DNA of 34,211 nt. It comes from Butyrivibrio sp. (lineage in GTDB: Bacteria; Bacillota; Clostridia; Lachnospirales; Lachnospiraceae). The stretch spans positions 1 through 34,211 of the forward strand of contig JAMPEU010000027.1 in the NCBI GenBank assembly GCA_023664865.1, written 5' to 3'. Each line of letters opens with the position of its first letter. Positions within the stretch are counted from its first letter, which is position 1. The position numbers and the translations under genes were made by a program. Below the pieces are notes generated by a model. It made no database searches, was not told the DNA's origin, and saw nothing but the letters and a program-made list of their open reading frames with translations. Shown piece after piece: positions 10,022 to 24,110 of the stretch.

Positions 10022-10230
10022 TTTAGGTAATTGCGAAACTGTCTAAGTCTATTTATGGATTGTACAAAGTATACAATCCATCGAAGGCACGCTTTCGCTG
10101 CATTGCCGCTCGTAGCGGTACTAAGCTCGAAAGTGCCTCGCTAAGTACCGACGGCGGCACAGCACCTTCGAGTGATTGTATACTTTGCACAATCTTGTTT
10201 ATAAGATAGTGAGTTTCGCAATTACTTAAG
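10022..10230 (-). repeat. Long hairpin element A (core in minus orientation)
   Basis: An almost 205-base imperfect palindrome fills the gap between purO and the formyltransferase gene. Outer arms: 10024-10040 with 10212-10228 (16 of 17 bases pair). Second arm block: 10058-10078 with 10174-10194 (20 of 21), each half also self-complementary (GATTGTA/TACAATC). The inner core, 10082-10170, read on the minus strand, shares with elements B and C the CGGTACT...AGTACCG stem, and the side motif GCAGCGAAAGCGTGCCTT. The rest between blocks is unpaired and diverged. No reading frame is evident inside. It might also attenuate transcription between the two genes. Confidence 0.75.
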
Positions 10231-10263
10231 AATGTATGTTTCAGAGAAAGGAATAATAAATAT

Positions 10264-11445
10264 ATGAACGAATTAGAATTAAAATACGGCTGCAATCCTA
10301 ACCAGAAACCGTCCAGAATTTACATGGAAGACGGCGGCGAACTGCCGATTAAGGTATTGAACGGAAAGCCGGGATATATTAATTTTCTTGATGCTTTTAA
10401 CGGCTGGCAGCTCGTGAAAGAGTTAAAGGCGGCGACAGGACTTCCGGCGGCTGCCTCTTTCAAACATGTATCGCCTGCCGGGGCGGCGGTAGGACTTCCG
10501 CTTACGGATGTGGAGAAAAAGATTTACTGGGTAGATGACTTGGATATGGAATTTACGCCGCTTGCCAATGCGTATGCAAGGGCGCGCGGAGCTGACAGAA
10601 TGTCTTCTTTCGGCGATTTCATTTCGCTTTCAGATGTATGCGATGTCTCAACGGCAAAAATTATAAAAAGAGAGGTATCAGACGGAGTAATAGCGCCCGG
10701 ATATGAGCCGGAGGCGTTGGAGATTCTGAAAGCAAAGAAAAAGGGCGGATATAATGTTATAGAGATTGATCCGGACTATGTTCCCGCGCCGCTTGAGGTG
10801 AAACAGGTTTACGGCATTAGTTTTGAACAGGGCAGAAATGAATTGAAAATTGACGATAAGTTTTTTGATAACGTCGTGACGGAGAATAAGGTGATTCCGG
10901 AACAGGCAAAGGTAGATTTGGCAATCGCCATGATTACTTTAAAATATACGCAGTCCAATTCAGTATGTTATGTAAAAGGCGGTCAGGCAATCGGTATCGG
11001 CGCGGGGCAGCAGTCAAGAATACATTGTACCAGACTGGCAGGCTCAAAGGCGGACAACTGGTTCTTGCGTCAGTCGCCTAAAGTATTGGGCTTACAGTTT
11101 ATAGACGGAATAGGACGGGCGGACAGGGATAATGCCATTGATTTGTATATGGGCGATGATGATATGGATGTGCTGGCTGACGGCGCATGGCAGAAAATAT
11201 TCAAGGTAAAGCCTGAACGCTTTACCGGGGAAGAAAAGCGCGCATGGCTGGATACAATGAGCGACGTAACCCTCGGTTCAGATGCGTTCTTCCCCTTTGG
11301 CGACAATATAGAGCGGGCGCATAAGAGCGGAGTAAAATATGTGGCGCAGCCGGGCGGCTCCGTCAGGGACGATAATGTTATCGAGACCTGCAATAAGTAC
11401 GGTATGGCAATGTGCTTTACTGGGATAAGGCTGTTCCATCACTAG
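10264..11445 (+). CDS. purV: AICAR formyltransferase, stand-alone
   Basis: A 393-residue protein corresponding to the formyltransferase domain of PurH without the cyclohydrolase domain. It transfers a formyl group from 10-formyl-THF to AICAR, giving FAICAR. Visible family marks are LKYGCNPNQKPS at the N-terminus, the Lys-His pair in AASFKHVSPAGAAVG, GVIAPGYEPEALEIL, YTQSNSVCYVKGGQAIGIGAGQQSR and the C-terminal KYVAQPGGSVRDD. An AGAAAGGA site precedes ATG 10264. Together with the PurO-like gene upstream it makes a split form of the last two steps to IMP. The symbol purV has been used for such stand-alone formyltransferases; many annotations write purH. Confidence 0.93.
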   Translation: MNELELKYGCNPNQKPSRIYMEDGGELPIKVLNGKPGYINFLDAFNGWQLVKELKAATGLPAAASFKHVSPAGAAVGLPLTDVEKKIYWVDDLDMEFTPLANAYARARGADRMSSFGDFISLSDVCDVSTAKIIKREVSDGVIAPGYEPEALEILKAKKKGGYNVIEIDPDYVPAPLEVKQVYGISFEQGRNELKIDDKFFDNVVTENKVIPEQAKVDLAIAMITLKYTQSNSVCYVKGGQAIGIGAGQQSRIHCTRLAGSKADNWFLRQSPKVLGLQFIDGIGRADRDNAIDLYMGDDDMDVLADGAWQKIFKVKPERFTGEEKRAWLDTMSDVTLGSDAFFPFGDNIERAHKSGVKYVAQPGGSVRDDNVIETCNKYGMAMCFTGIRLFHH

Positions 11446-11460
11446 GTTAAATTAAGATAG

Positions 11461-11605
11461 GGAATATAAAACATGAACCCTTTGAAGGTCCTTGAAAAAC
11501 GCCGGTACTTAGTGAAAAAGCTGTTTTTGAGCTTTTGAACTTAGTACCGCTGCGATTTTTCACGGAGCGAGAGCGTACCTTCAAAGGGTTCATGTTTTAT
11601 ATTCC
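11461..11605 (+). repeat. Long hairpin element B, with perfect 29-base arms
   Basis: The arms 11461-11489 and 11577-11605 are perfectly complementary over 29 bases. The core (11490-11576) folds further: TGAAAAACGC with GCGATTTTTCA, CGGTACT with AGTACCG, and AAAAGCT with AGCTTTT; an unpaired side segment holds GGAGCGAGAGCGT. The element lies between the convergent purV and buk genes. The outer arms have an A-run on one side and a T-run on the other, so the whole can serve as a bidirectional terminator. The core is shared with elements A and C but the arms are not. Confidence 0.85.
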
Positions 11606-11655
11606 GTTATGGTTCTAATGACTTCATGCGTTTGATGATGTTCTGGCTAAACCGT

Positions 11656-12723
11656 TTAATATACCATAGCCTTCTCTTCCCCATTCAACACGCGCAGTCC
11701 GCCCTGGACAAGTGCAAGCAGCTCGTCTTCGCCGGGATATATTGTCATCGGGGCAATCCAGCCGGCTTTTTCTTTTAACCCTGCAACCACTACCTTGTCA
11801 TAGGCAATGCCGCCTGTGACAATTATTTGGTCGATTTTTCCCTTTAAGACACATGCCATTGAGCCGATATCCTTCGCAACCTGAGTAATAAAAGCTTCGC
11901 GTACTTCGGCAGCTTTAGCATCGCCGTTTTGCACCATTTTCTCCACGTCGCGCATATCGTTTGTTCCGCAGTATGCGTTAAAACCGCCGTTGCCGACGAA
12001 CATCTTATAAACTTCCTTTTCGGTATATTTGCCGGAGAAACACAATTTAATGAGCGCACCGCTTTGAACTGCTCCGGCTCTTTCAGGAGAAAACGCGCCG
12101 TCGCCGTCTAAGGCGTTGAACACGTCCACAACTTTACCCTGTCTGTGTGCGCCTACGGATACTCCGCCGCCCATATGAACAACTATAAGATTCATGGACT
12201 CGTAAGCTTTGCCGGCTTCTTTAGCATAACGCTTGGCAACCGCCTTCTGATTTAGGGCGTGGAATACGCTGGTTCTGGGTAATTCGGGTACTCCTGAATA
12301 TCTGGATACAGGTTCAAGTTCGTCAACTACTACAGGGTCCACAATATATGAAGGAACTCCGATTGAATCGGCAATTTCCTTGGCAAGAATGCCGCCTAGA
12401 TTGGAAGCATGCTGCCCCTGTTTACCGATTTTTAAGTCTTCAAGCAAATCGTCGCTTACTCCATATGTTCCGCCCGGAATCGGTTTCAACATACCGCCGC
12501 GTCCAACCACCATATTCAGTGAATTAATATCAAAGTTCTTTTCTTTTAACAGATTGACGATGATTTCTTTCCTAAAGTCCTTCTGGTCCACGATAGATGC
12601 GTATCCGGCAATTTCTTCCGTGGAGTGCCTTAATGTTTCCTCAAATAACAATGTTTCGTCCTCAAAAACTCCGATTTTGGTAGATGTGGAGCCGGGATTG
12701 ATAATTAAACTTTTAACAGACAT
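11656..12723 (-). CDS. buk: Butyrate kinase
   Basis: A member of the acetate/butyrate kinase (ASKHA) family of 355 residues, the normal length for Buk rather than the ~400 of acetate kinase. N-terminal phosphate-binding motif [16 protein letters not shown]; further [35 protein letters not shown] and the adenosine-binding [11 protein letters not shown]. It makes butyrate and ATP from butyryl phosphate; branched-chain acyl phosphates are a possible substrate too. It follows ptb by 38 bases with AAAGGCGG as ribosome-binding site, and shares its promoter. The downstream end is element B. Confidence 0.95.
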
Positions 12724-12761
12724 TTAGTTTTCCGCCTTTCATTTTGTTGTGTATAAATTTC

Positions 12762-13679
12762 TTATGATTTGGACATTGCTTCCGCCATAACTGCTCCAAG
12801 CGCGATGGAATTAACCTTAGTTTCAAAATCGTCTGAACGTGAAGTTAAAATAACAGGTGCTTTTGTACCGGTTAGAATATTTCCGTTCTTAACTTTAGCC
12901 GTATGGACAAGGCATTTGTATACAAGATTTCCTGCGTGGATGTCAGGGAAAAGAAGTATGTCAGCATCGCCTACAATCTTTCTGCCTTCTGCACCCTTAT
13001 GTTTAGCCGCCTCAGGATCAATGGCAAGGTCTAAGGAGAGCGGTCCGTCTACTACGCAGCCTGTGATTTTGCCTTCCTCGCACATTTTGGTAAGTTCCTC
13101 AGCCTCTAATGTAACCGGCATCTTGGGGTTTACGACCTCTACTGCGGCAAGCGGTGCCACCTTGGGATTAGGGATGCCGCAGGCGTGGCAGACTTCAACG
13201 GTATTTTCAATAATATGCACTTTTTCTTCCAAAGTAGGATAGGTCAGGAAAGCCACATCCGATAAGAATAAAAGATGGTTGATTCCCTCAACTTCAAATA
13301 CGCATACATGGGACAGGGTTTTTCCGGTTCTTAAGCCGACCTCCTTATCCAGCACGCTTTTTAAGAAAGATTTGGTATCGATAAGCCCTTTCATATACAT
13401 ATTTGCCTTGCCTGTATGTACCAGTTCAACAGCCTTAAGCGCGGCGGTATAGTTATCTTTCTCGTCAATGATTTCATATCCGCTTACGTCCATATTGATG
13501 GAAGCGGCCACTTCCTTAATCTTGTCCACGTCGCCGACAAGGATTGCCTCTGCGATATTACGCTCTTTAGCGGCTTTTACCGCCTCTAATACCGCGCTGT
13601 CCTGCGCTACGGCTACAGCGACTTTTTTGACGCTGCACTCAGATACTTTAGATAATAAGTCATCAAAACTCTTACTCAT
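12762..13679 (-). CDS. ptb: Phosphate butyryltransferase
   Basis: Converts butyryl-CoA and phosphate to butyryl phosphate, feeding Buk. From ATG 13679 it has 305 residues, the typical Ptb size; GGAGG stands just upstream. A longer frame to 13724 would start before this site and is not favoured. Features are the VAVAQDSAVLEAVKAAKERN start of the phosphotransacetylase fold, MYMKGLIDTKSFLKSVL, HVCVFEVEGINHLLFLSDVAF (in parts), VDGPLSLDLAIDPEAA and DILLFPDIHAGNLVYK. It is the first gene of a two-gene ptb-buk operon, divergent from secA. Confidence 0.94.
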   Translation of the reverse strand: MSKSFDDLLSKVSECSVKKVAVAVAQDSAVLEAVKAAKERNIAEAILVGDVDKIKEVAASINMDVSGYEIIDEKDNYTAALKAVELVHTGKANMYMKGLIDTKSFLKSVLDKEVGLRTGKTLSHVCVFEVEGINHLLFLSDVAFLTYPTLEEKVHIIENTVEVCHACGIPNPKVAPLAAVEVVNPKMPVTLEAEELTKMCEEGKITGCVVDGPLSLDLAIDPEAAKHKGAEGRKIVGDADILLFPDIHAGNLVYKCLVHTAKVKNGNILTGTKAPVILTSRSDDFETKVNSIALGAVMAEAMSKS

Positions 13680-13770
13680 TTTTCCTCCATTCCGAAGTAT
13701 TCTACATTTAACTTCTCTCTTCATATTTGCTATATGTTATTTTCATATGATTAATATAGCATACAAAAAA

Positions 13771-13799
13771 ATAGTATCACTTCTGCTGCTAAAAATCAA
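13771..13799 (-). promoter_or_regulatory. Promoter of ptb-buk
   Basis: On the minus strand TTGATT (13799-13794), 17 bases, then TACTAT (13776-13771) with an upstream TG giving an extended -10. It lies 91 bases before the ptb start. The remaining AT-rich segment 13800-13860 shows nothing else that I can support. Confidence 0.65.
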
Positions 13800-13861
13800 A
13801 TTTAGAATGACAAATGTTTGATTTTTTTATAAAATATTAACATATGCTCTAATGCGGAAGG

Positions 13862-13890
13862 TTGAATTTGTATAGTAAATCTGATACAAT
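13862..13890 (+). promoter_or_regulatory. Promoter of secA-prfB
   Basis: TTGAAT (13862-13867), 17 bases, TACAAT (13885-13890) with the extended TGA before it. The leader to secA ATG 14041 is about 145 bases and holds a small AATTG/CAATT hairpin near 13936-13950 and a second possible start (GTG 13972 with AAAGGAA). Confidence 0.7.
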
Positions 13891-14040
13891 ATATGTTGGT
13901 TTTTTATATATGAAAATTTTGCCAAAGAACTAGGATAATTGTGAAGCAATTTTCTTGTGTAAAAAGGAAATGTGGCTGCATTTGGACATGCTTTTACTCA
14001 AACAGAAGGCATGCGTAAGAATGCACAGATTGGAGTAAGA

Positions 14041-16611
14041 ATGAACGTAGTACAGAAAGTTTTCGGAACACACAGTGAAAGAGAGATAAAGAGAATTAAT
14101 TCGCTGGTAGATCAGATTGAGGCGCTCAGGGATTCTATGATGGCGCTAAGCGATGAGCAGTTAAAGGCTAAGACCGAAGAGTTTAAGAAACGCCTGGCAG
14201 ATGGAGAGACTCTTGATGATTTACTTGTAGACGCCTATGCGGTAGTCAGGGAAGCGGCAAGGCGGGTGCTGGGAACGGAGCATTACCGCGTGCAGCTGAT
14301 TGGTGGAATCATTCTTCATCAGGGGCGTATCGCGGAGATGAAAACCGGTGAAGGTAAGACTCAGACCTGTCTTTTGCCGGCATATCTGAATGCTTTGGAA
14401 GGAAAAGGAATACACGTCGTTACTGTAAACGATTATCTTGCTAAGCGTGATGCTGAGTGGATGGGACAGGTTCATGAAGCCTTAGGGCTGACTGTCGGCG
14501 TGGTTTTAAACAGCATGAAGCCCGAAGAGCGGAGAGAGGCATATAACTGCGATATTACCTATGTGACCAACAATGAACTTGGCTTTGATTATCTGCGTGA
14601 CAATATGGTTATATATAAGGAACAGCTTGTACTCAGGGATTTGCACTATGCCATTATCGATGAGGTTGACTCGGTTCTGATTGATGAGGCAAGGACGCCG
14701 CTTATTATTTCCGGACAGAGCGGTAAATCGACGAAACTCTATGAGGCATGTGATATTCTTGCGAAACAGCTCGTCCGTGGCGAAGATATGGCGGAATTAT
14801 CCAAAATGGATGCGATAATGGGCGTAGAGCGTGAAGAGACGGGCGATTTTATTGTTAATGAGAAGGATAAAGTAGTTAATCTGACCGCACAGGGCGTAGC
14901 TAAAGTGGAGCGTTTTTTCCAGATAGAGAATCTGGCGGATCCGGAAAATCTCGAAATCCAACACAATATCACCTTGGCTCTGAGGGCGCATAACCTGATG
15001 TTCAGGGATCAGGATTATGTGGTAAAAGACGACCAGGTGCTGATTGTAGATGAATTTACCGGACGTATTATGCCGGGGCGGCGTTATTCTGATGGTTTAC
15101 ATCAGGCGATTGAAGCGAAAGAACATGTAAAGGTAAAAAGGGAGAGTAAGACGCTTGCGACCATTACTTTCCAGAACTTTTTTAATAAATTTGAGAAAAA
15201 GGCGGGTATGACAGGTACGGCGCTGACAGAAGAAAAGGAGTTTCGCGATATTTATGGTATGGACGTTATTGAGATTCCGACTAATGAGCCGATTGCCAGA
15301 ATCGATAGACAGGATGCCGTATATAAGACCAGACGCGGGAAACTGAACGCTATCGTAGAGGCTATTATAGAGGCGCATGCGAAAGGGCAGCCCGTATTGG
15401 TTGGTACGATTACGATTGAGGCATCTGAAGAATTGAGCGCCCTTTTGAAAAAAAGAGGCTTAGAACATAAAGTATTGAACGCTAAATTTCATGAGATGGA
15501 GGCTGAAATTGTAGCGGATGCCGGTATTCATGGGGCGATAACGATTGCAACCAATATGGCGGGACGTGGTACGGATATCAAGCTGGACGATGAATCCAGA
15601 GCTGCCGGAGGACTTAAGATTATAGGCACGGAGAGGCATGAGTCGAGACGTATAGATAACCAGCTCCGCGGACGTTCAGGAAGACAGGGAGATCCCGGTG
15701 AATCGAAGTTTTATATTTCACTTGAGGACGACCTCATGAGACTGTTTGGTTCTGAGAGAATGATATCCATGTTTAATGCGCTGGGTATTCCCGAAGATCA
15801 GGAAATAGAGCATGGCGCACTGACTAAGGCGGTTGAATCTGCACAGAAGAAGATTGAAAACAATAACTTCGGAATCAGAAAAAATCTGCTTGAATACGAT
15901 CAGGTTATGAACGAGCAGAGGGAGATAATATACGAAGAGAGAAGGCGGGTACTTAACGGCGAGAGTATGCGCGACGCTATTTATAAGATGATTACGGATA
16001 CCGTCGAGAACTGCATTGATATATGTATAGGCGACGACAGCGATTTTGAGGATTGGAATTTTGCCGAGCTTAATTCGTTGCTCCTTCCCATTATACCTTT
16101 ACAGCCTTTGAAACCGGAGAGGGTGTTAAAGCCTAAGAAGAACAGCTTAAAACAGCAGTTAAAAGAAGAAGCAGTCAAACTGTATGAAAGTAAAGAGGCA
16201 GAATTTCCTGAGCCGGAAGCTATACGTGAGATTGAGCGCGTAATTTTGCTTAAGGCGATTGACAGGAAGTGGATGGACCATATCGACGATATGGATCAGC
16301 TGCGCCAAGGCGTGGGCTTACAGGCATATGGGCAGAGGGATCCGCTTGTGGAATATAAGATGAGCGGTTATGAGATGTTTGATGAAATGACGCAGAATAT
16401 TAAAGAAGAAACTGTCCGCCTATTGTTCCGTGTACGCATCGAGCAGAAGGTTGAAAGAGAGCAGGTGGCGAAGGTTACGGGAACAAATAAAGATGATTCA
16501 GCGCCCAAAGCTCCGGTTAAACGTATGGAATCCAAGGTATATCCTAATGACCCATGCCCGTGCGGTTCAGGGAAAAAGTATAAACAGTGCTGCGGCAGAG
16601 GCAGGGTATAA
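14041..16611 (+). CDS. secA: Preprotein translocase ATPase SecA
   Basis: Motor of the Sec export system at the inner face of the membrane. From ATG 14041 it is 856 residues and starts [19 protein letters not shown], like homologues; TTGGAG at 14026-14031 supports this start. Walker A is MKTGEGKTQ (residues 100-108), Walker B region [19 protein letters not shown], helicase motif [12 protein letters not shown], and [13 protein letters not shown]. The C-terminal zinc-binding tail is complete: [20 protein letters not shown], as needed for SecB or ribosome contact. A GTG at 13972 with its own AAAGGAA could add 23 residues that do not look like SecA. Followed by prfB 33 bases later. Confidence 0.96.
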
Positions 16612-16644
16612 GATTTTAGTTAAGTATGAAAGAGGGTGACGTTA

Positions 16645-17755
16645 TTGGTAGAGCTTGATAATATGAAATCAGAACTTCAGAGTTATGAAAGTCCATTAGC
16701 GGAAGTGAGGGATTCACTTTAACTTAGCGGCTAAGGAAAAGAGAATTGAAGAACTGGAGATGGAAATGCAGGAGCCGGGTTTCTGGGATGATCCGGAAAA
16801 GTCCAACCAGAAGATGAAAGAGTCCAAGAACCTTAAAGACATTGTGGATACGATGAAAGGGCTGGAAAACCGCTATGAAGATATACTAACGTTAATTGAA
16901 ATGGGATACGAGGACAATGATCCCGGCATTATTCCGGATATCAGTGAGGAACTTGAAACATTTAAAACGGAATTTGAAACAATCAGGATTAGCACACTCC
17001 TATCTGGCGAATATGATAAGAATAATGCGATTCTTAGGCTGAATGCGGGGGCAGGCGGGACTGAAAGCTGCGATTGGTGCAGCATGTTGTACCGTATGTA
17101 TACAAGATGGGCGGAAAGAAAGGGATTTTCGCTTGAGGTATTGGATTCCCTGGACGGTGATGAGGCTGGAATCAAGTCTGTTACATTTCAGATAAACGGC
17201 GAAAATGCTTACGGATATCTTAAATCAGAGAAAGGCGTACACCGACTGGTGCGTATTTCACCTTTTAATGCACAGGGCAAGCGTCAGACTTCATTTGTCT
17301 CTTTAGACGTCATGCCTGATATTGAGGAAGATTTGGATGTGGAGATAAAGGACGAAGATATAAGGGTGGATACTTACCGAAGCAGCGGCGCGGGCGGGCA
17401 GCATATAAATAAAACTTCATCTGCTATAAGAATTACGCACTTCCCGACGGGCATCGTGGTAACGTGCCAGAATGAGCGGAGCCAGCATATGAATAAGGAT
17501 AAGGCGATGCAGATGTTAAAAGCGAAGCTGTATATGCTCAAGCAGGAAGAAAATGCCGAAAAGTTGTCCGATATCCGCGGAGACGTAAAGGAAATCGGCT
17601 GGGGCAATCAAATCCGTTCATATGTCATGCAGCCATATACAATGGTTAAAGACCACAGGACGAACGAAGAATCGGGTAATGTAGATGCGGTTATGGACGG
17701 AGCAATAGACCCTTTTATAAATTCATATCTGAAATGGAAAAGTGTCGGGCATTAG
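16645..17755 (+). CDS. prfB: Peptide chain release factor 2 with programmed +1 frameshift
   Basis: RF2 reads UGA and UAA stop codons. Translation begins at TTG 16645 (GAGGGTGA just upstream) as VELDNMKSELQSYE (first residue fMet), runs 25 codons to CTT 16717-16719, meets TAA 16720-16722, and continues after a +1 shift at AAC 16721 for 344 more codons: 369 residues in all. The C-terminal part carries the stop-recognition tripeptide SPF (residues 205-207) and the catalytic GGQ (250-252), numbered exactly as in E. coli RF2. Conceptual location: join 16645..16719 and 16721..17755. A simple annotation would start inside the second part at about 16760. It follows secA in one operon and ends overlapping the convergent DUF975-like gene by 4 bases. 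Confidence 0.95.
16708..16723 (+). other. prfB frameshift site with UAA
   Basis: AGGG (Shine-Dalgarno-like stimulator, 16708-16711), five bases, then CTT TAA C. The usual site in bacterial prfB is CTT TGA C. Slippage of the peptidyl-tRNA from CUU to UUU moves the ribosome to the AAC frame. The residue decoded after the shift is Asn rather than Asp. Confidence 0.9.
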
Positions 17756-17765
17756 TCCGACACTT
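17740..17765. terminator. Bidirectional terminator made of two overlapping gene ends
   Basis: AAGTGTCGG (17740-17748) and CCGACACTT (17757-17765) form a perfect 9-bp stem with an 8-base loop that contains the prfB stop TAG and the stop of the minus-strand gene. A GGTTTTTCTT tail follows on the plus side and TTTCCATTTC on the minus side. Confidence 0.85.
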
Positions 17766-18489
17766 GGTTTTTCTTGATTAAGTCTAAGAAGAACTCAGTA
17801 TTGGCGGCATAAATATATGGCACAATCCAGAAACATGCGATTCCGCACGATAACAAACCAAGCAGCAATAATGGGAAGAAACTTACCATAAAATAAAATA
17901 ACCTGAATTTGTTGCCCTTCATAAGCTTCCTGCTCGTCGATAATATTTTACTGACGGAATATTCCGGAAAGTCATGCAACAGATAAAACGCCTGCGAATA
18001 AACAAGGAGAATTGCCACATACACCACATAATACAAAAGCAGCGACAGATAATAGAATAGTGAAATTGCGGCATTTTCAGGATATATCATTACAAAATAT
18101 GTGAAGATTAAATAAGGTATCATAGCTGCATAAATCCAAGCGGACATATACATCTGTATTAACACGGCTTTGTCAGGAAACATTTTAAAGCCATAAAAAA
18201 TATCGCTTACTACTACAGGCTGTTTGCAGGATATTTTTAAATAGAAATATATTAAGCCTGAATTGAGAAGGCCGGACAGGACGGATACAACGAAGGAGAT
18301 TACAAAGTACAGCACTATTCCGTAAATCGTACCCATATTAACGAATACTGTTGAAAAATTGCTGACGAATAAATTAATGGAACCGACAATGATGATGGCG
18401 CCTATAGCTGTACCGTATTTTCCGAACAGACGCTCTTTGGCGACAGACTTTAATTCTTCATTAGATTTATACCTATTTAAATTATCCAT
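17752..18489 (-). CDS. DUF975-like multi-spanning membrane protein
   Basis: A protein of 245 residues with about six hydrophobic segments and the DUF975 habit: an N-terminal KSNEELKSVAKERLFGKYGTAIGA, a central DIFYGFKMFPDKAV, and a C-terminal half with VSKILSTSRKLMKGNKFRLFYFMVSFFPL. These marks, including the short polar loop before the last helices, are typical of the Firmicutes DUF975 family; its function is unknown. It is the last of three minus-strand genes and ends over the prfB stop. The gap to the preceding HExxH gene is 36 bases, so the group could be one transcript. Confidence 0.82.
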   Translation of the reverse strand: MDNLNRYKSNEELKSVAKERLFGKYGTAIGAIIIVGSINLFVSNFSTVFVNMGTIYGIVLYFVISFVVSVLSGLLNSGLIYFYLKISCKQPVVVSDIFYGFKMFPDKAVLIQMYMSAWIYAAMIPYLIFTYFVMIYPENAAISLFYYLSLLLYYVVYVAILLVYSQAFYLLHDFPEYSVSKILSTSRKLMKGNKFRLFYFMVSFFPLLLLGLLSCGIACFWIVPYIYAANTEFFLDLIKKNQVSD

Positions 18490-18525
18490 AAACGTACTCC
18501 AATTAATACTTTTTATAATAGCTGC

Positions 18526-19017
18526 TTAACATGCAATATCGACATTCATTCCAAGGTACTTATTTGCCGCGTCTGAGGATTTTAATTCTTTTTGATAAGG
18601 ATTCTCCTCATTATAGTAGCGAATCTGCGTAGACGTGGTTCCGCCTGAAACAAAGGTGCGGCCACATTCCGGACATACGGAAGTATGGATTGCGACATTG
18701 CATGAGAGGACTTTTCCATTATTCTGCGCAGCTTTTCTGTAAGCGTTAGAAACATGTTCCTGTTCGTGGCTCCTGACTTTTGACGCAGCCGCATTCGGAG
18801 AAATATGCGATGCTGCCTTAAAAGAAACATTTTCGTCGGAACCGTCCTGATATTTACGGTTGCGGCAGGTTTCACACTCTGCGGGAGAAGACTCACGACC
18901 CGGAAGTTTCTCAGTTGACTGGCCGGGATTGCGGATTATCTGATAACTTTCATCAGCCTGCGATGGAAAATATGAACTTGCTAATGGATTAATACCGTTT
19001 ACCATACCGATAACCAT
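18526..19017 (-). CDS. Small HExxH-containing, Cys-rich protein of unknown function
   Basis: A protein of 163 residues without signal peptide or membrane segment. It has HEQEHV (residues about 84-89) in the context SKVRSHEQEHVSNAYRKA, the form of a zinc metallopeptidase active-site helix, preceded by a CETC pair (residues about 49-52) and followed by a CPEC pair in HTSVCPECGRTFVSGG. The two Cys pairs could form a zinc ribbon. It resembles SprA-related and similar small putative metalloproteases, but the third zinc ligand is not identified, so activity is a guess. The start is uncertain: AGGAAGG lies just 1 base before ATG 19017, and ATG 19005 is a possible alternative. Confidence 0.7.
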   Translation of the reverse strand: MVIGMVNGINPLASSYFPSQADESYQIIRNPGQSTEKLPGRESSPAECETCRNRKYQDGSDENVSFKAASHISPNAAASKVRSHEQEHVSNAYRKAAQNNGKVLSCNVAIHTSVCPECGRTFVSGGTTSTQIRYYNEENPYQKELKSSDAANKYLGMNVDIAC

Positions 19018-19035
19018 TCCTTCCTGAAATAAATA

Positions 19036-19956
19036 TTAATTAGTATAACCGCTTTCTTCCAGAATTTCTTCCAACATCTCATCGAAAGTCTGGCCGTATA
19101 TGCTCTCGAATGTTTCATTGGCTCTGGTTCTGACGGTATCATTTGTAAATAGCATTATAGTAAAGCTTATAAAAATTATCGCACTCAAAACTAATCCTAC
19201 TGTGCCGGTTATTATACCGTTTTTTGCCGTGCTTGGAAGTTTGGGACGCATGCCTTTGGAAAGCAGGGCAAGTACAATAGCCGTGGCTCCTGTCATAAGC
19301 GCCGGATATACAACACATTGTAAAGACATAATCATTGAAATTAAATCAATTAAACTCATGACAAGGGAGATGATGCCTAAAACCTTAGAGGCGGAAGCCA
19401 ACTTGTCTCCCGGCTCCTGGATGTTCTGCCGGTATATGGGACGCCCATAGTTATAACCGTTATTATTATAGCCATAGTTATAACCATTATTGCCATAACT
19501 ATTGTTATTGTTACCATATCCATTATTATAACTATTGTTATTATATCCGCTGTTGTTATTGTTGCTGCCGTTGTAGCTGTTATTGTAATTATTGATGTTA
19601 TTATAGCCGTTGTAGTTATTGTTGTTATAGCTGTTGCCACTGTTGTAAGGGTTGGTGCTATTGTGACCGTTATAGTTATTGACGCCATTATAGCTGTTAC
19701 TATTGTTGTAACCGTTATTGCCGGTATAGGTATTGCCGCTTGAATATGGCGTATTAGTCGGCTGCGTAGGGGTCGGACTGCCTTGATAAACATGCGCTGA
19801 TGTTTGTGCTGACTCCGAGACATTCATGTTGCTTCCGCTTTGCTCAGGAGTATTTTCAGCGGTATTATTCATACTCGCAGGATCTGTGTTTGGCATATCC
19901 GGCGTATTATTTATATTATTATTGTTATCCGGTTCAATATTGTGCTGAAAGTCCAT
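19036..19956 (-). CDS. Membrane protein with long Asn/Tyr/Gly-rich N-terminal region
   Basis: A protein of 306 residues. The first 75 are polar (Asn, Thr, Pro, Ser). About residues 75-175 form a low-complexity region built almost only of Asn, Tyr, Gly and Ser (NGYNNSNSYNGVNNYNG type repeats). The C-terminal 120 residues have a DUF4190-like layout: a short KLASASKVLGIISLVMSLIDL helix and two to three more hydrophobic helices, ending in an acidic tail (FDEMLEEILEESGYTN). GGGGGA precedes ATG 19956. On the minus strand TGATACAAT at 20026-20018 is a probable extended -10 promoter. Such proteins often accompany membrane-envelope functions, but no specific role can be assigned. Confidence 0.82.
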   Translation of the reverse strand: MDFQHNIEPDNNNNINNTPDMPNTDPASMNNTAENTPEQSGSNMNVSESAQTSAHVYQGSPTPTQPTNTPYSSGNTYTGNNGYNNSNSYNGVNNYNGHNSTNPYNSGNSYNNNNYNGYNNINNYNNSYNGSNNNNSGYNNNSYNNGYGNNNNSYGNNGYNYGYNNNGYNYGRPIYRQNIQEPGDKLASASKVLGIISLVMSLIDLISMIMSLQCVVYPALMTGATAIVLALLSKGMRPKLPSTAKNGIITGTVGLVLSAIIFISFTIMLFTNDTVRTRANETFESIYGQTFDEMLEEILEESGYTN

Positions 19957-20017
19957 GATAATCCCCCATTTTTACCCAGCCTGCGAATTTATACATCACG
20001 TTCAACTGATTAAGCCT

Positions 20018-20026
20018 ATTGTATCA
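20018..20026 (-). promoter_or_regulatory. Extended -10 promoter of the minus-strand membrane gene group
   Basis: On the minus strand TGATACAAT, 62 bases upstream of ATG 19956; the -35 position is weak (TGGATT at 17-base spacing). The rest of 20027-20110 is AT-rich and shows nothing else supportable. Confidence 0.5.
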
Positions 20027-20114
20027 TAGACAAATAAGAAAATCCACTTTAAATTGTAAAAATCCATTTACCCTAAAATTATTAATAATGTTCCATGCAG
20101 CGCATTTCAACCCG

Positions 20115-20143
20115 TTGCACATATCAAAAAAATCAAGTATAAT
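20115..20143 (+). promoter_or_regulatory. Promoter of tex
   Basis: TTGCAC (20115-20120), 17 bases, and a perfect TATAAT (20138-20143), 62 bases before the tex start. GGGAG at 20191-20195 is the ribosome-binding site. Confidence 0.7.
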
Positions 20144-20204
20144 GTATAGGTAGCTGCGCTGCGACATGGTGCAGCCACAAGAAAATGTCAGGGAGTTGTA
20201 ATAC

Positions 20205-22574
20205 ATGGATATTATTTTAAAACTAAAAGAAGAATTAAAAGTAGAAAAATGGCAGGTTGAGGCTGCCGTAAAGCTGATTGATGAAGGAAATACGATTCCT
20301 TTTATTTCAAGATACCGTAAGGAGGCTACAGGCGCATTGAACGATGAAGTGCTGCGTAATCTCCATGAGAGGCTTACATATCTGAGAAATCTTGAAGAGA
20401 AAAAGGAACAGGTTATAAAGAGCATTGAGGAACAGGGCAAGCTGACGGAAGAACTTAAAGAGAAAATTGCCTCAGCAGAGACTATGGTGGTTGTAGACGA
20501 TTTATACCGTCCTTATCGCCCGAAGAGAAAGACAAGGGCAAGCGTAGCTAAGGAGAAAGGCTTAGACGGACTGGCTGATTATATTATGGCGCAGGAAGGC
20601 GGCGCGCCTATTGAAGAAGAGGCTGCAAAATATGTCCATGACGATGAGGACGAGGCAAAGGCGGTAAAGACCGTGGAGGATGCCATTCAGGGCGCAAAAG
20701 ACATTATAGCCGAAATGATTTCCGACGAGGCTGATTACCGTATATATATAAGAAATATTACGATTGATGAAGGAAAACTTGTAAGTACGGCAAAGGACGA
20801 GAAAGCGCAGAGCGTATACGAGATGTACTATAATTATGAAGAACCGGTAAAAAGGGCGGCTGGACATCGTATTCTGGCGATTAACAGAGGGGAGAATGAA
20901 AAATTCCTGACAGTTAAGATTGCTGCACCGGAAGAGCGCATTTTGCAGTACCTTCGTAAAAAAGTCATTAAAAATGACAATAGTGTCACAACTCCGATTT
21001 TGGAAGAAGTCATTTCTGATAGTTATATCAGACTTATTGCTCCTGCAATAGAAAGGGAGATTAGGAATGATTTGACGGAAAAAGCGGAAGACGGCGCGAT
21101 AGCCGTATTTGGCAAGAACTTAGAGCAGCTCCTTTTACAGCCGCCGATTGCCGGCAAGGTAGTCCTTGGCTGGGATCCTGCATTCAGAACCGGCTGTAAG
21201 CTCGCAGTGGTAGACGCTACCGGCAAGGTGCTTGATACCAAGGTTATTTATCCGACTGCGCCCCAGAACAAAGTTGTAGAAGCTAAGGCGGAGTTAAAAA
21301 GGCTGATTAAGAAATACAACGTATCCCTTATTTCTGTAGGAAACGGCACTGCCTCAAGAGAATCGGAACAGGTCATTGTCGAGCTGCTTAAAGAGCTGGA
21401 TGTACCAGTGCAGTATGTTATTGTCAACGAGGCGGGCGCTTCTGTATATTCTGCAAGTAAACTTGCAACGGAGGAATTTCCTAACTTTGATGTGGGACAA
21501 AGAAGCGCGGCTTCTATTGCGAGAAGGCTTCAGGATCCGCTTGCGGAGCTTGTAAAAATCGATCCGAAATCCATAGGAGTCGGTCAGTACCAACACGATA
21601 TGAATCAGAAGAAACTCAGTGACGCGCTAAACGGCGTTGTGGAAGACAGCGTTAATAAAGTAGGAGTAGACCTTAATACGGCATCAGCGTCACTGCTTGA
21701 GTATGTTTCCGGCGTAACTAAGGTGATAGCCAGAAATATCGTAGATTACAGAGAGGCAAACGGGCGCTTTACTAACCGTAATCAGTTGCTCAAGGTGGGT
21801 AAGCTTGGTCCCAAGGCGTTTGAACAGTGTGCAGGCTTTATGAGGATTACGGATGGCGATAATCCGCTTGACGCTACCAGCGTACACCCTGAATCATATG
21901 AGGCGGCAAAAAAGCTTCTTGACAAGATGGGGCTTACCATGGCGGACGTCAAAGAGGCGCAGAAAAAGGCGGCGGCAGAGAAAGCGGCTGGTAAAAAGGC
22001 TCCCATAGTCAAGGAAAAACCTAAGAAACAGAAAGAAATCGTTATACGCAACACCAATACTGCTATGGGAAAAGCGCTGGCGGCGGCTATGGGCGGCGTG
22101 GCGCTTGATAATGCGGGCGCAGCGACACAGACCATGGAGAAACCAGATGTAACTGTAAGCAGTCTGGAGAAAAGAATAAAAGATAAAAAGAAACTTGCGG
22201 AGGAACTCGGCATCGGCGAGATTACCCTGACGGATATATTGAAGGAGCTTGAAAAACCTGCAAGAGATCCGCGTGACGATATGCCTGCTCCAATTTTAAG
22301 GAGCGATGTGCTTGATATGAAAGATTTAAAGCCCGGTATGGTTTTAAAAGGTACAGTGCGTAATGTTATCGATTTTGGCGCATTCGTGGATATCGGGGTG
22401 CATCAGGACGGTCTTGTGCATGTTTCCCAGATGACCGATAAATTTATCAAGCACCCGTTAGAGGCGGTAAGCGTCGGAGATGTGGTTGAAGTACAGGTGC
22501 TTTCCGTTGATTTGGAGAAAAAACGGATTGGTCTGACGATGAAGATAGGAAAAGATACTCAGGCGAAACAATAA
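20205..22574 (+). CDS. tex: Tex-family RNA-binding transcription accessory protein
   Basis: A protein of 789 residues. Its N-terminus (KVEKWQVEAAVKLIDEGNTIPFISRYRKEATG) and GWDPAFRTGCKLAVVDATGKVLDT of the YqgF-like domain identify Tex. The helix-hairpin-helix part follows (TKVIARNIVDYREANGRF), and the C-terminal S1 domain is MVLKGTVRNVIDFGAFVDIG...HVSQM. Tex/YhgF-type proteins bind nucleic acid and associate with transcription and RNA decay. It is longer than the 720-780 usual residues because of an Ala/Lys-rich insert at about residues 583-650 between the HhH and S1 parts. Monocistronic by appearance: promoter before, and the FMN riboswitch unit after. Confidence 0.95.
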   Translation: MDIILKLKEELKVEKWQVEAAVKLIDEGNTIPFISRYRKEATGALNDEVLRNLHERLTYLRNLEEKKEQVIKSIEEQGKLTEELKEKIASAETMVVVDDLYRPYRPKRKTRASVAKEKGLDGLADYIMAQEGGAPIEEEAAKYVHDDEDEAKAVKTVEDAIQGAKDIIAEMISDEADYRIYIRNITIDEGKLVSTAKDEKAQSVYEMYYNYEEPVKRAAGHRILAINRGENEKFLTVKIAAPEERILQYLRKKVIKNDNSVTTPILEEVISDSYIRLIAPAIEREIRNDLTEKAEDGAIAVFGKNLEQLLLQPPIAGKVVLGWDPAFRTGCKLAVVDATGKVLDTKVIYPTAPQNKVVEAKAELKRLIKKYNVSLISVGNGTASRESEQVIVELLKELDVPVQYVIVNEAGASVYSASKLATEEFPNFDVGQRSAASIARRLQDPLAELVKIDPKSIGVGQYQHDMNQKKLSDALNGVVEDSVNKVGVDLNTASASLLEYVSGVTKVIARNIVDYREANGRFTNRNQLLKVGKLGPKAFEQCAGFMRITDGDNPLDATSVHPESYEAAKKLLDKMGLTMADVKEAQKKAAAEKAAGKKAPIVKEKPKKQKEIVIRNTNTAMGKALAAAMGGVALDNAGAATQTMEKPDVTVSSLEKRIKDKKKLAEELGIGEITLTDILKELEKPARDPRDDMPAPILRSDVLDMKDLKPGMVLKGTVRNVIDFGAFVDIGVHQDGLVHVSQMTDKFIKHPLEAVSVGDVVEVQVLSVDLEKKRIGLTMKIGKDTQAKQ

Positions 22575-22640
22575 AAATTGTGTTTTCGTATTGATTTTTG
22601 CCTGCGTCAGTATTACAATAGCATAAATACATAAAGTTAA

Positions 22641-22786
22641 GTTCTTCGGGGTTGGGTGTAATTCCCTACTGGTGGTGATGTCTGTGAATAACAGGCGAGT
22701 CCACGACCTGATTATATTCACGGAAATATAATCAGCTGATACGGTCAGAATCCGTAACCAACAGTAAAGTCTGGATGAAAGAAGAA
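22641..22786 (+). promoter_or_regulatory. FMN riboswitch (RFN element)
   Basis: The conserved core is present in order: P1 TTCTTC (22642-22647) with GAAGAA (22781-22786), GGGTGTAATTCCCTACTGGTGGTGATG, the GAGTCCACGACCTG segment, a variable hairpin (CTGATTATATT / AATATAATCAG), and the 3-prime part ACAGTAAAGTCTGGATGAAAG. It binds FMN and turns off the downstream riboflavin-uptake gene. The expression platform is the terminator at 22821-22852. Confidence 0.95.
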
Positions 22787-22820
22787 ATAATATTTGTATG
22801 CTTTGTTTTGTATGCAATTT

Positions 22821-22852
22821 ACCCCGGATATTATATATGTCCGGGGATTTTT
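22821..22852 (+). terminator. Riboswitch terminator
   Basis: CCCCGGA and TCCGGGG form a stem over a loop of about 11 bases followed by ATTTTTTATTT. It is placed 35 bases after the aptamer, as expected for FMN-induced premature termination. Confidence 0.9.
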
Positions 22853-22872
22853 TATTTCCATTTCCATAACCA

Positions 22873-22957
22873 GAGTTCGGTCGGAATAAACAAAAGCGGA
22901 GCGACTTACCGCTTTTCAGGCATTGGAGCTTCGTTTTTGTTTATTCCGTCCGGACTC
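22873..22957 (+). repeat. 30-bp hairpin between the riboswitch terminator and ribU
   Basis: The arms 22873-22902 and 22928-22957 pair over 30 positions: 26 Watson-Crick, 3 G-U wobbles and 1 U-U mismatch as RNA. The 25-base interior contains GACTTACCGCTTTTCAGG and may be a shortened version of the conserved core of elements A-C (which have TTAGTACCGCTGCGATTTTTCA). It lies in the ribU leader, after the riboswitch terminator and just before the AAAGGAG site. The role is unknown. Confidence 0.7.
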
Positions 22958-22988
22958 GTAATAGCATGAAAGGAGCAAAAGAAGAATT

Positions 22989-23714
22989 ATGAACGGATTA
23001 TTTCAAAGTATCCAGGACAACGTACTGTTTGTCGTCGAGTTTATGGGGATTATCGTACTTATGACGATAATTGCTTATGCGGCGGAGAAGTGCATCAGGA
23101 AGAAAAATAGCGAGACCGGCAGGATTTTATCGACAGGAAAAATTGCGGTAATTGGAATGTTTTCAGCAATAGCGGCAATATTGCATATACTGGACTTTCC
23201 AGTTCCATTCGCACCGTTTTTCTATAAGCTGGATTTCAGTGAATTGCCGGCGTTGATTGGTACGTTTGCTTATGGACCGGTAGCAGGTGTTATGATTGAA
23301 TTTTGTAAAATAATACTCAAGCTGTTGTTTAAAAATACCTCTACGGCATTCGTAGGAGAGATGGCGAATTTCGTAATCGGCTGTTCATTCTTGGTTCCTG
23401 CGTCCATAATATATATGCTGCGCAAGAATAAAAAAACAGCCGTTATCGCATGTGCTGTCGGAACTTTGTGCATGACGATATTCGGCAGCGCTTTCAATGC
23501 AGTGTATCTTCTTCCGGCGTTTTCTAAGCTGTATGGTATGCCTCTTGAACAAATCGTAGAGATAGGGACGGCGATTAATCCGGCGATAAAAGATACAATA
23601 ACACTTGTAATCTTAGCGGTGGCGCCGCTGAATTTATTAAAAGGCGCTTCGGTATCGCTCATTACCATGTTGGTTTATAAAAAATTGAGCCCTATCTTAA
23701 AAAAGGCGGTATAA
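22989..23714 (+). CDS. ribU: Riboflavin ECF transporter substrate-binding subunit RibU
   Basis: A 241-residue membrane protein with an N-terminal extra helix (about 12-32) and then the five to six helices of an ECF S-component. The family motif around GMFSAIAAILHILDFPVPFAPFFYKLDFSELPALIG, read as parts, contains the riboflavin-type LDFSELPALIG, and VAGVMIEFCKIILKLL follows, where energy-coupling modules dock. It takes up riboflavin in combination with the shared EcfAT module, which is not in this window. The FMN riboswitch immediately upstream confirms the substrate. Start ATG 22989 with AAAGGAG at about 22968-22974. Confidence 0.94.
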   Translation: MNGLFQSIQDNVLFVVEFMGIIVLMTIIAYAAEKCIRKKNSETGRILSTGKIAVIGMFSAIAAILHILDFPVPFAPFFYKLDFSELPALIGTFAYGPVAGVMIEFCKIILKLLFKNTSTAFVGEMANFVIGCSFLVPASIIYMLRKNKKTAVIACAVGTLCMTIFGSAFNAVYLLPAFSKLYGMPLEQIVEIGTAINPAIKDTITLVILAVAPLNLLKGASVSLITMLVYKKLSPILKKAV

Positions 23715-23818
23715 ATGAAGATTATTAATTTAAGATAATGTTAAGGTTTGGGGAAGTTTGAATTAAGATATCAATGCTATATTCTTAATACAGGCTTCCT
23801 TTATTCACAGCCTTGAGC

Positions 23819-23985
23819 GGCATGGACTCATATGCTTCTTCTTGAGGCTCTTGGAAAACGTAGACCACTGAAAGTGGTCTTATACTTTGGTGAAAAAGCT
23901 GTTTTTTTAGCTTTTGAACCTAGTACCGCTACGATTTTCCACGAAGCGAGAGCGTGCCTCAGGGAGAAGCATATGAGTTCATGCC
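23819..23985 (+). repeat. Long hairpin element C
   Basis: Arms 23819-23848 and 23956-23985 pair over 30 positions: 27 Watson-Crick and 3 G-U as plus-strand RNA. The core (23849-23955) aligns with element B: GAAAACG, GGTGAAAAAGCTG, AGCTTTTGAAC, TAGTACCGCTACGATTTTCCACG, and GAAGCGAGAGCGTGCCT. It also carries an extra small hairpin, ACCACTGAAAGTGGT (23873-23887 area). It occupies the gap after ribU; no T-run follows the arm. The rest of 23715-23818 and 23986-24110 is AT-rich and I see nothing further except possible weak promoter elements near 24065-24100. Confidence 0.8.
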
Positions 23986-24110
23986 ATATACGATTGTGAA
24001 TAGTGACTACCTGTTGTATTTTAAGTAATTTGTTAGAAAAATTTATGAAAAGATTATAAAATACTTGAAGTTTTTTATGGTATATTAGCGTTATATATAG
24101 TATATTTATT

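Follow-up and report, generated by a model that had tools for sequence, protein, structure and literature searches.

Long intergenic DNA hairpins with a conserved centre form an apparently undescribed repeat family in Lachnospiraceae

The stretch of Butyrivibrio sp. DNA analysed here (the window, 34,211 nucleotides) is contig C100 of genome G000, an assembly of 3.82 Mb in 180 contigs. It carries three long hairpins, copies A, B and C, for which an initial annotation proposed a constant core lying in arms that are unrelated between copies and paired within each copy. The locus raises the question of how a shared centre comes to sit between arms that match only each other.

The coordinates and the pairing proposed for the three copies hold (Table 1). 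Copy A folds at -98.3 kcal/mol (z -13.3), a value equalled by 0 of 200 shuffles. In copy B, 25/25 inner bases paired in the arm-matching computation, and its outer stem ends in TTTTATATT. Own-arm matches in A, B and C are 0.88, 1.00 and 0.88, whereas arms swapped among the three score 0.36–0.52. The shared core was likewise borne out: AGCGARAGCGTRCCT, allowing up to two mismatches, occurs in the window exactly three times, at A, B and C, where 0.15 matches are expected. The pairing of these copies is thus far beyond chance, as judged by the motif matches, the fold statistics and the arm-swap scores. A scan of the window copies for terminator patterns (a GC-rich hairpin followed by a T run) flagged small inner pieces only. 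Two structured RNAs reach the Rfam gathering score in the window, an FMN riboswitch (RF00050, 22638–22790, plus strand) and a tRNA (RF00005, 33780–33865, plus strand). Beside the riboswitch, at about 22880–22960 on the minus strand, lies another dispersed hairpin repeat, built around TGCCTGAAAAGCGGTAAGTCGC and with some 20 matches in the fetched loci.

Table 1. Positions of the hairpin copies and their parts in the window.
Feature	Position	Strand	Basis or remark
Copy A, whole long hairpin, A-type arms	10024..10228	-	fold; model R2 match C100:10074-10178, minus
Core of copy A (GG..GTGCC)	10086..10166	-	alignment A2; boundaries read off the sequence
Copy B, whole hairpin; arms 29/29 complementary, in no other local copy	11461..11605	+	
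Core of copy B	11487..11579	+	alignments A1 and A2
Left half of terminator-like hairpin AAAACATGAACC, coreless in relative G020	11468..11479	.	right half at about 11587-11598
Copy C, whole hairpin, common CATATG-type arms	23819..23985	+	
Core of copy C	23846..23958	+	alignment A1
Extra small hairpin AGACCACTGAAAGTGGTCT within core of C	23862..23880	+	similar insert in L225

The three copies belong to a real and apparently undescribed family of long intergenic DNA hairpins with a conserved centre in Lachnospiraceae. The search of the genome and its relatives with core models, as the initial annotation had suggested, returned at least 150 copies in G000 (profile search of the contigs). Inside the window, the matches listed for both models are A, B and C. 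Model R1, built from the 32 copies of alignment A1, was run under stricter filters in a survey of 61 genomes and matched 34 of them: 34 of the 37 in the genus, the genome itself counted, and 0 of the 24 from other families of the order. Model R2 (alignment A2) gave at least 150 matches in G000, 86 in G020, 9 in G061, 26 in G062, 33 in G063, 5 in G064, 18 in G065 and 48 in G066. Among cultured carriers, Pseudobutyrivibrio xylanivorans MZ8 has 9 copies by this search. A pattern for the 3′-half of the core matched at least 108 stretches of GTDB genomes; those listed are mainly titled Lachnospiraceae, Butyrivibrio, Pseudobutyrivibrio, Blautia, Roseburia or similar, and a few, on metagenome bins, are titled otherwise, for instance Muribaculaceae. 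Neither the core pattern nor copy B matched viral contigs, plasmids or phage records. None of 74 C-type copies is spanned by an open reading frame as called by a simple script, which identifies the element as a high-copy intergenic palindrome. G000 copies often form inverted pairs a few hundred bases apart, like paired REP units (C44:10143/10335, C44:81160/81375, C94:34153/34346, C114:129175/129339 and C37:3449/3771). The suggestion that no described family shows this pattern stands in the material covered: Rfam holds no match to the element at its gathering score (13 sources in all), and the family was not found in the literature on Lachnospiraceae MITEs and RNA motifs, Butyrivibrio palindromes and Firmicutes REPs, which lay largely outside subscription journals.

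The core has the consensus GGYNCT...CGYCGGYACTT, a variable apical hairpin, and then AGTACCGCTRCG...AGCGARAGCGTRCC. It folds into a stem with a two-base CT bulge and a side mini-hairpin closed on GARA. Across the 30 diverse copies of alignment A2, GG-C-T, CGGNNCTT, GTACCGCTNC and GCGARAGCGTRCC are invariant around the apical hairpin, and columns 30 and 81 pair as C-G in 16 copies and U-A in 14, the pair being broken in none. Two-sided changes occur at 39 of 57 pairs in A1 and at 10 of 21 in A2. An alternative fold, CGCTRC with GYAGCG, was rejected on finding that its R and Y letters covary with columns 30 and 81 instead. At L208, L202, L152, L150 and L296, long unrelated hairpins stand in place of the apical one. 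A version with a gene inside the core, as expected of an autonomous element, was sought in the fetched loci and none was seen.

On either side of the core lie the arms, which belong to the element. The claim that they differ completely between copies is true among A, B and C and in genomes G062 and G063, but not in G000. There, 88 cores were collected from about 0.63 Mb fetched around known copies, so that the fractions may favour copies resembling the model. C-type arms flank 77 of them (72 labelled CATATG-type by script and 5 variants assigned by eye), A-type arms flank 9, copy A being the most divergent, and only in B and C44:24092 are the arms individual. With just these two among 88, the contrast seen in the window is largely a sampling effect. 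Other copies do therefore carry the arms of A and of C, though not those of B.

In G062 and G063, the proposed pattern, with one core throughout and arms that pair within each copy but are unrelated between copies, is stronger than had been claimed. Arms of G062 (16 of the 18 copies among the matches listed) are Watson-Crick paired at 382 of 387 columns, with 3 G-U, 2 other and 0 A-C combinations and 8 gaps, while the outer arms of different copies are only 37% alike. The corresponding counts are 204/220 in G063 (9 copies) and 121/133 in G065 (8 rows); in this counting, L266 was mis-anchored (7 columns). An arm matches its own partner best in 15/15 copies of G062 and 9/9 of G063, in 47/83 of G000 and in 0/7 of G065. 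Arms are thus copy-specific in some genomes (24/24 scored copies in G062 and G063) and common to copies in others (G065). Certain arm ends, GTTG among them, turn up in different copies, which makes the arms look homologous rather than local.

The history of individual sites was read by comparing G000 with G020. Both flanks lie within the fetched G020 stretches for 20 of the 88 copies, whose sites were classed by eye from alignments as 7 occupied, 3 coreless hairpins, 4 relics, 5 empty and 1 unclear (C44:55635). Coreless hairpins occur at B, C125:104005 and C44:53891, and an arm or outer ends persist at window copy A, C114:187392, C114:194292 and C114:170091. The five empty copies represent four sites (C44:81190 and C44:81402 share one), with neither element nor visible hairpin in G020 and no clear target-site duplication. 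Some of these absences may be deletions, and the direction of change is not proven. The core is inverted between near-identical arms at 2 of the 7 occupied sites. Among the 175 arm columns of these seven (25 each, counted between G000 and G020 with the G062 rows left out), 151 are identical across the four arms, 12 show paired changes, 11 are changed one-sided or more and 1 is a shared mismatch. At some sites (C114:171995, C44:35392) the apical hairpin has been swapped while the site itself is unchanged.

These patterns can best be accounted for if A, B and C are copies of a single foldback repeat, old, dispersed and non-coding, in which template switching during replication homogenises the arms and flips the core, with frequent core loss; this reading is on balance probably correct. 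Replication would stall at the hairpin, switch template and re-copy one arm from the other, leaving the arms as exact inverted copies, and the same switch could flip the core. Arms would then drift freely in sequence but never apart, so that a constant core would seem to sit in local arms. Copies would also exchange cores by recombination and decay by central deletion to coreless hairpins or single arms. The exact but drifting arms, the in-place inversion of the core and the coreless remnants are together what template switching predicts. Homogenised arms and inverted spacers have been named as the products and signature of template switching (PMC8604942), and it is described as creating and mending perfect stems (PMC8794818). 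The 12 paired against 11 one-sided-or-more changes and the two inverted cores support it, as do the G062 arms, nearly perfect within copies and dissimilar between them. It is weakened by the low share of own-partner matches in G000 and G065.

A different explanation is that the core is a guest which enters existing hairpins, terminators for instance, at their tips, as the initial annotation had envisaged. Copy B gives this idea its strongest case: at B's place, G020 has AAAACATGAACC-loop-GGTTCATGTTTT, a terminator-like hairpin without a core, and G010 has a different, unrelated one; the coreless state there could be ancestral or derived. Arms without a core were found at five orthologous sites in all (the three in G020, pgsA in G077 and folD in G095). 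The position of C-type copies in G000 also speaks for it: of the 58 lying between tandem genes, 45 have a stop codon and 15 a start codon no more than 90 nt away. As a general account it lacks support, however, in view of the two common arm types (77 and 9 of the 88 local copies), of the five compared copies at element-free G020 sites, and of the folD, pgsA and E1 sites, which have no hairpin in several relatives. Empty sites without a hairpin, together with the shared arms of the A and C types, indicate that the arms are as a rule gained and lost along with the core. Central deletion explains coreless hairpins as well as insertion into hairpins does: in some the right arm is the longer of the two and in others the spacer is missing, as central deletions predict. 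Insertion into ready-made hairpins is therefore distinctly unlikely.

Sites compared between G062 and its relatives show the intermediate states in more variety. At folD, both G062 and G094 carry the element, between arms that differ clearly; in G095 the two arms are left without a core as an almost spacerless palindrome, G077 has one arm, G067 has one arm and a core end, and G075 and G078 have nothing. At pgsA, the element is again present in G062 and G094, between which the arms show one paired change and the apical part is swapped; G077 has a coreless hairpin, G075 a 14-base palindrome-like remnant, and G067, G078 and G095 nothing. Given the 14-base remnant in G075 and the palindrome in G095, loss of the core explains the coreless hairpins equally well, and where the remnant is almost spacerless, as at folD in G095, central deletion is the better explanation. 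At site E2, the element is present in G062, G095 and G094, right-hand pieces remain in G067, G075 and G078, and a short fragment in G063; the arms of the G094 copy are unpaired, which weakens the case for template switching. At a third site, E3, G062 and G095 carry the element, and a short outer end remains in G094 and G075.

Site E1 bears on another proposal of the initial annotation, that the element makes its own inverted flank at insertion. At this site G062 and G094 carry the element with arms in common but cores that differ, the apical part being swapped; G063 and G078 lack it, and in G067, G075, G077 and G095 other sequence takes its place. A weak single-copy look-alike of the E1 left arm occurs in G077, where the right arm is missing; with the single folD arm of the same genome, likewise aligned by eye, it gives the proposal ambiguous support, to which the truly copy-specific, perfect arms of G062 and G063 may be added. 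The folD state of G077 can be a deletion between TTAAATCAATC and TTTAATCAATC, the recurring arm ends point to homology, and the seven occupied G000/G020 sites show drift and no new flanks, making this origin of the arms quite improbable.

The placement of copies relative to genes, for which open reading frames came from a simple script rather than a gene finder, is not random in its distances to stop and start codons. Sense copies between tandem genes in G062 and G063 have a start codon 50–58 nt after the core in 15/15 cases; 8 further copies are antisense and 2 stand in divergent contexts. Elements are kept before the same genes across genomes, for example ahead of folD in L147 and L206, and in G062 and G063 ahead of the genes whose products begin MKEFKPVKEG and MTKKPVVLMI. 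Cores occur in both orientations relative to genes. On this reading the repeat would be tolerated, and perhaps used as a transcript-end or intercistronic RNA hairpin, beside stop codons or ribosome-binding sites.

The constant start-codon spacing and the persistence before the same genes would be expected of a cis-acting functional RNA, and the folding of the arms could alternatively be kept by selection on transcripts. Such selection is also hinted at by an excess of G-U over A-C in the inner arms (49:25 in 75 G000 copies and 43:31 in 69 copies of the diverse set, 28 poorly paired copies being skipped), which counts against template switching. In a wider arm window the ratios are 93:54 and, reversed, 105:131, so that inner and wider windows disagree for the diverse set. 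The excess does not switch sides with gene direction (++ 29:15, -- 35:19), the 387 G062 columns hold just three G-U, cores are inverted at orthologous sites and face either way relative to genes, and Rfam has no match. A cis-acting RNA is accordingly a credible but doubtful explanation. A further, unlikely possibility is that the core is a hairpin parasite at palindrome tips, entering and leaving hairpins or writing a fresh exact inverted flank on landing, possibly through an RNA or single strand of the core strand, which the G-U excess follows rather than the gene strand.

Under the template-switching explanation, new copies would spread as a non-autonomous element; a search for the mobilising enzyme among Y1 transposases gave none in four of five genomes, and no gene was seen inside the cores of the fetched loci. 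The family would add a large, apparently undescribed repeat to a dominant group of gut and rumen bacteria. Its hundreds of orthologous and paralogous perfect hairpins offer a natural experiment in how hairpins evolve, for which the predictions of template switching, of selection on RNA and of structure-targeted insertion differ. They also carry a warning: DNA replication alone may produce covariation, which is commonly taken to prove RNA structure. Should the core be a hairpin parasite, it would be a mobile element targeting structure rather than sequence.

Bacterial MITEs are short, non-coding, many-copy foldback elements with one shared terminal repeat. The hairpin family resembles them in all but the last respect, and in the presence or absence of whole elements between close relatives (for 5 of 20 copies the G020 site is empty). 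Its terminal arms are the same within the two arm types of G000, but not across the family nor inside G062 or G063, and neither a parent transposase nor, at the empty sites, a clear target duplication was found. Like REP/REPIN sequences with their RAYT transposases, the family is dispersed, intergenic and palindromic, exceeds 100 copies and often forms inverted pairs, and mobilisation by a Y1 (RAYT) enzyme might be supposed. The hairpins are, however, much longer, with a conserved centre and variable arms, and no Y1 was found in 4 of 5 genomes: in these incomplete assemblies, Y1_Tnp at E ≤ 1e-4 gave 0 hits in G000, G020, G016 and G006 and 1 in G010, with 5 of 14 control genomes positive. A REP/REPIN-like origin is thus highly improbable. 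The lone Y1 transposase gene of G010 lies at G010:C52:1279-1605. Bacterial stem-loop-containing sequence families are similarly dispersed and found from genome sequence; the copy-specific exact arms and the core inversion appear to be the new points of the hairpin family. The closest parallel in process is the template-switch homogenisation of inverted repeats, with the same arm homogenisation and spacer inversion; it has been described for yeast genes and RNA genes (PMC8604942; PMC8794818), whereas here a whole bacterial repeat family would be shaped by it.
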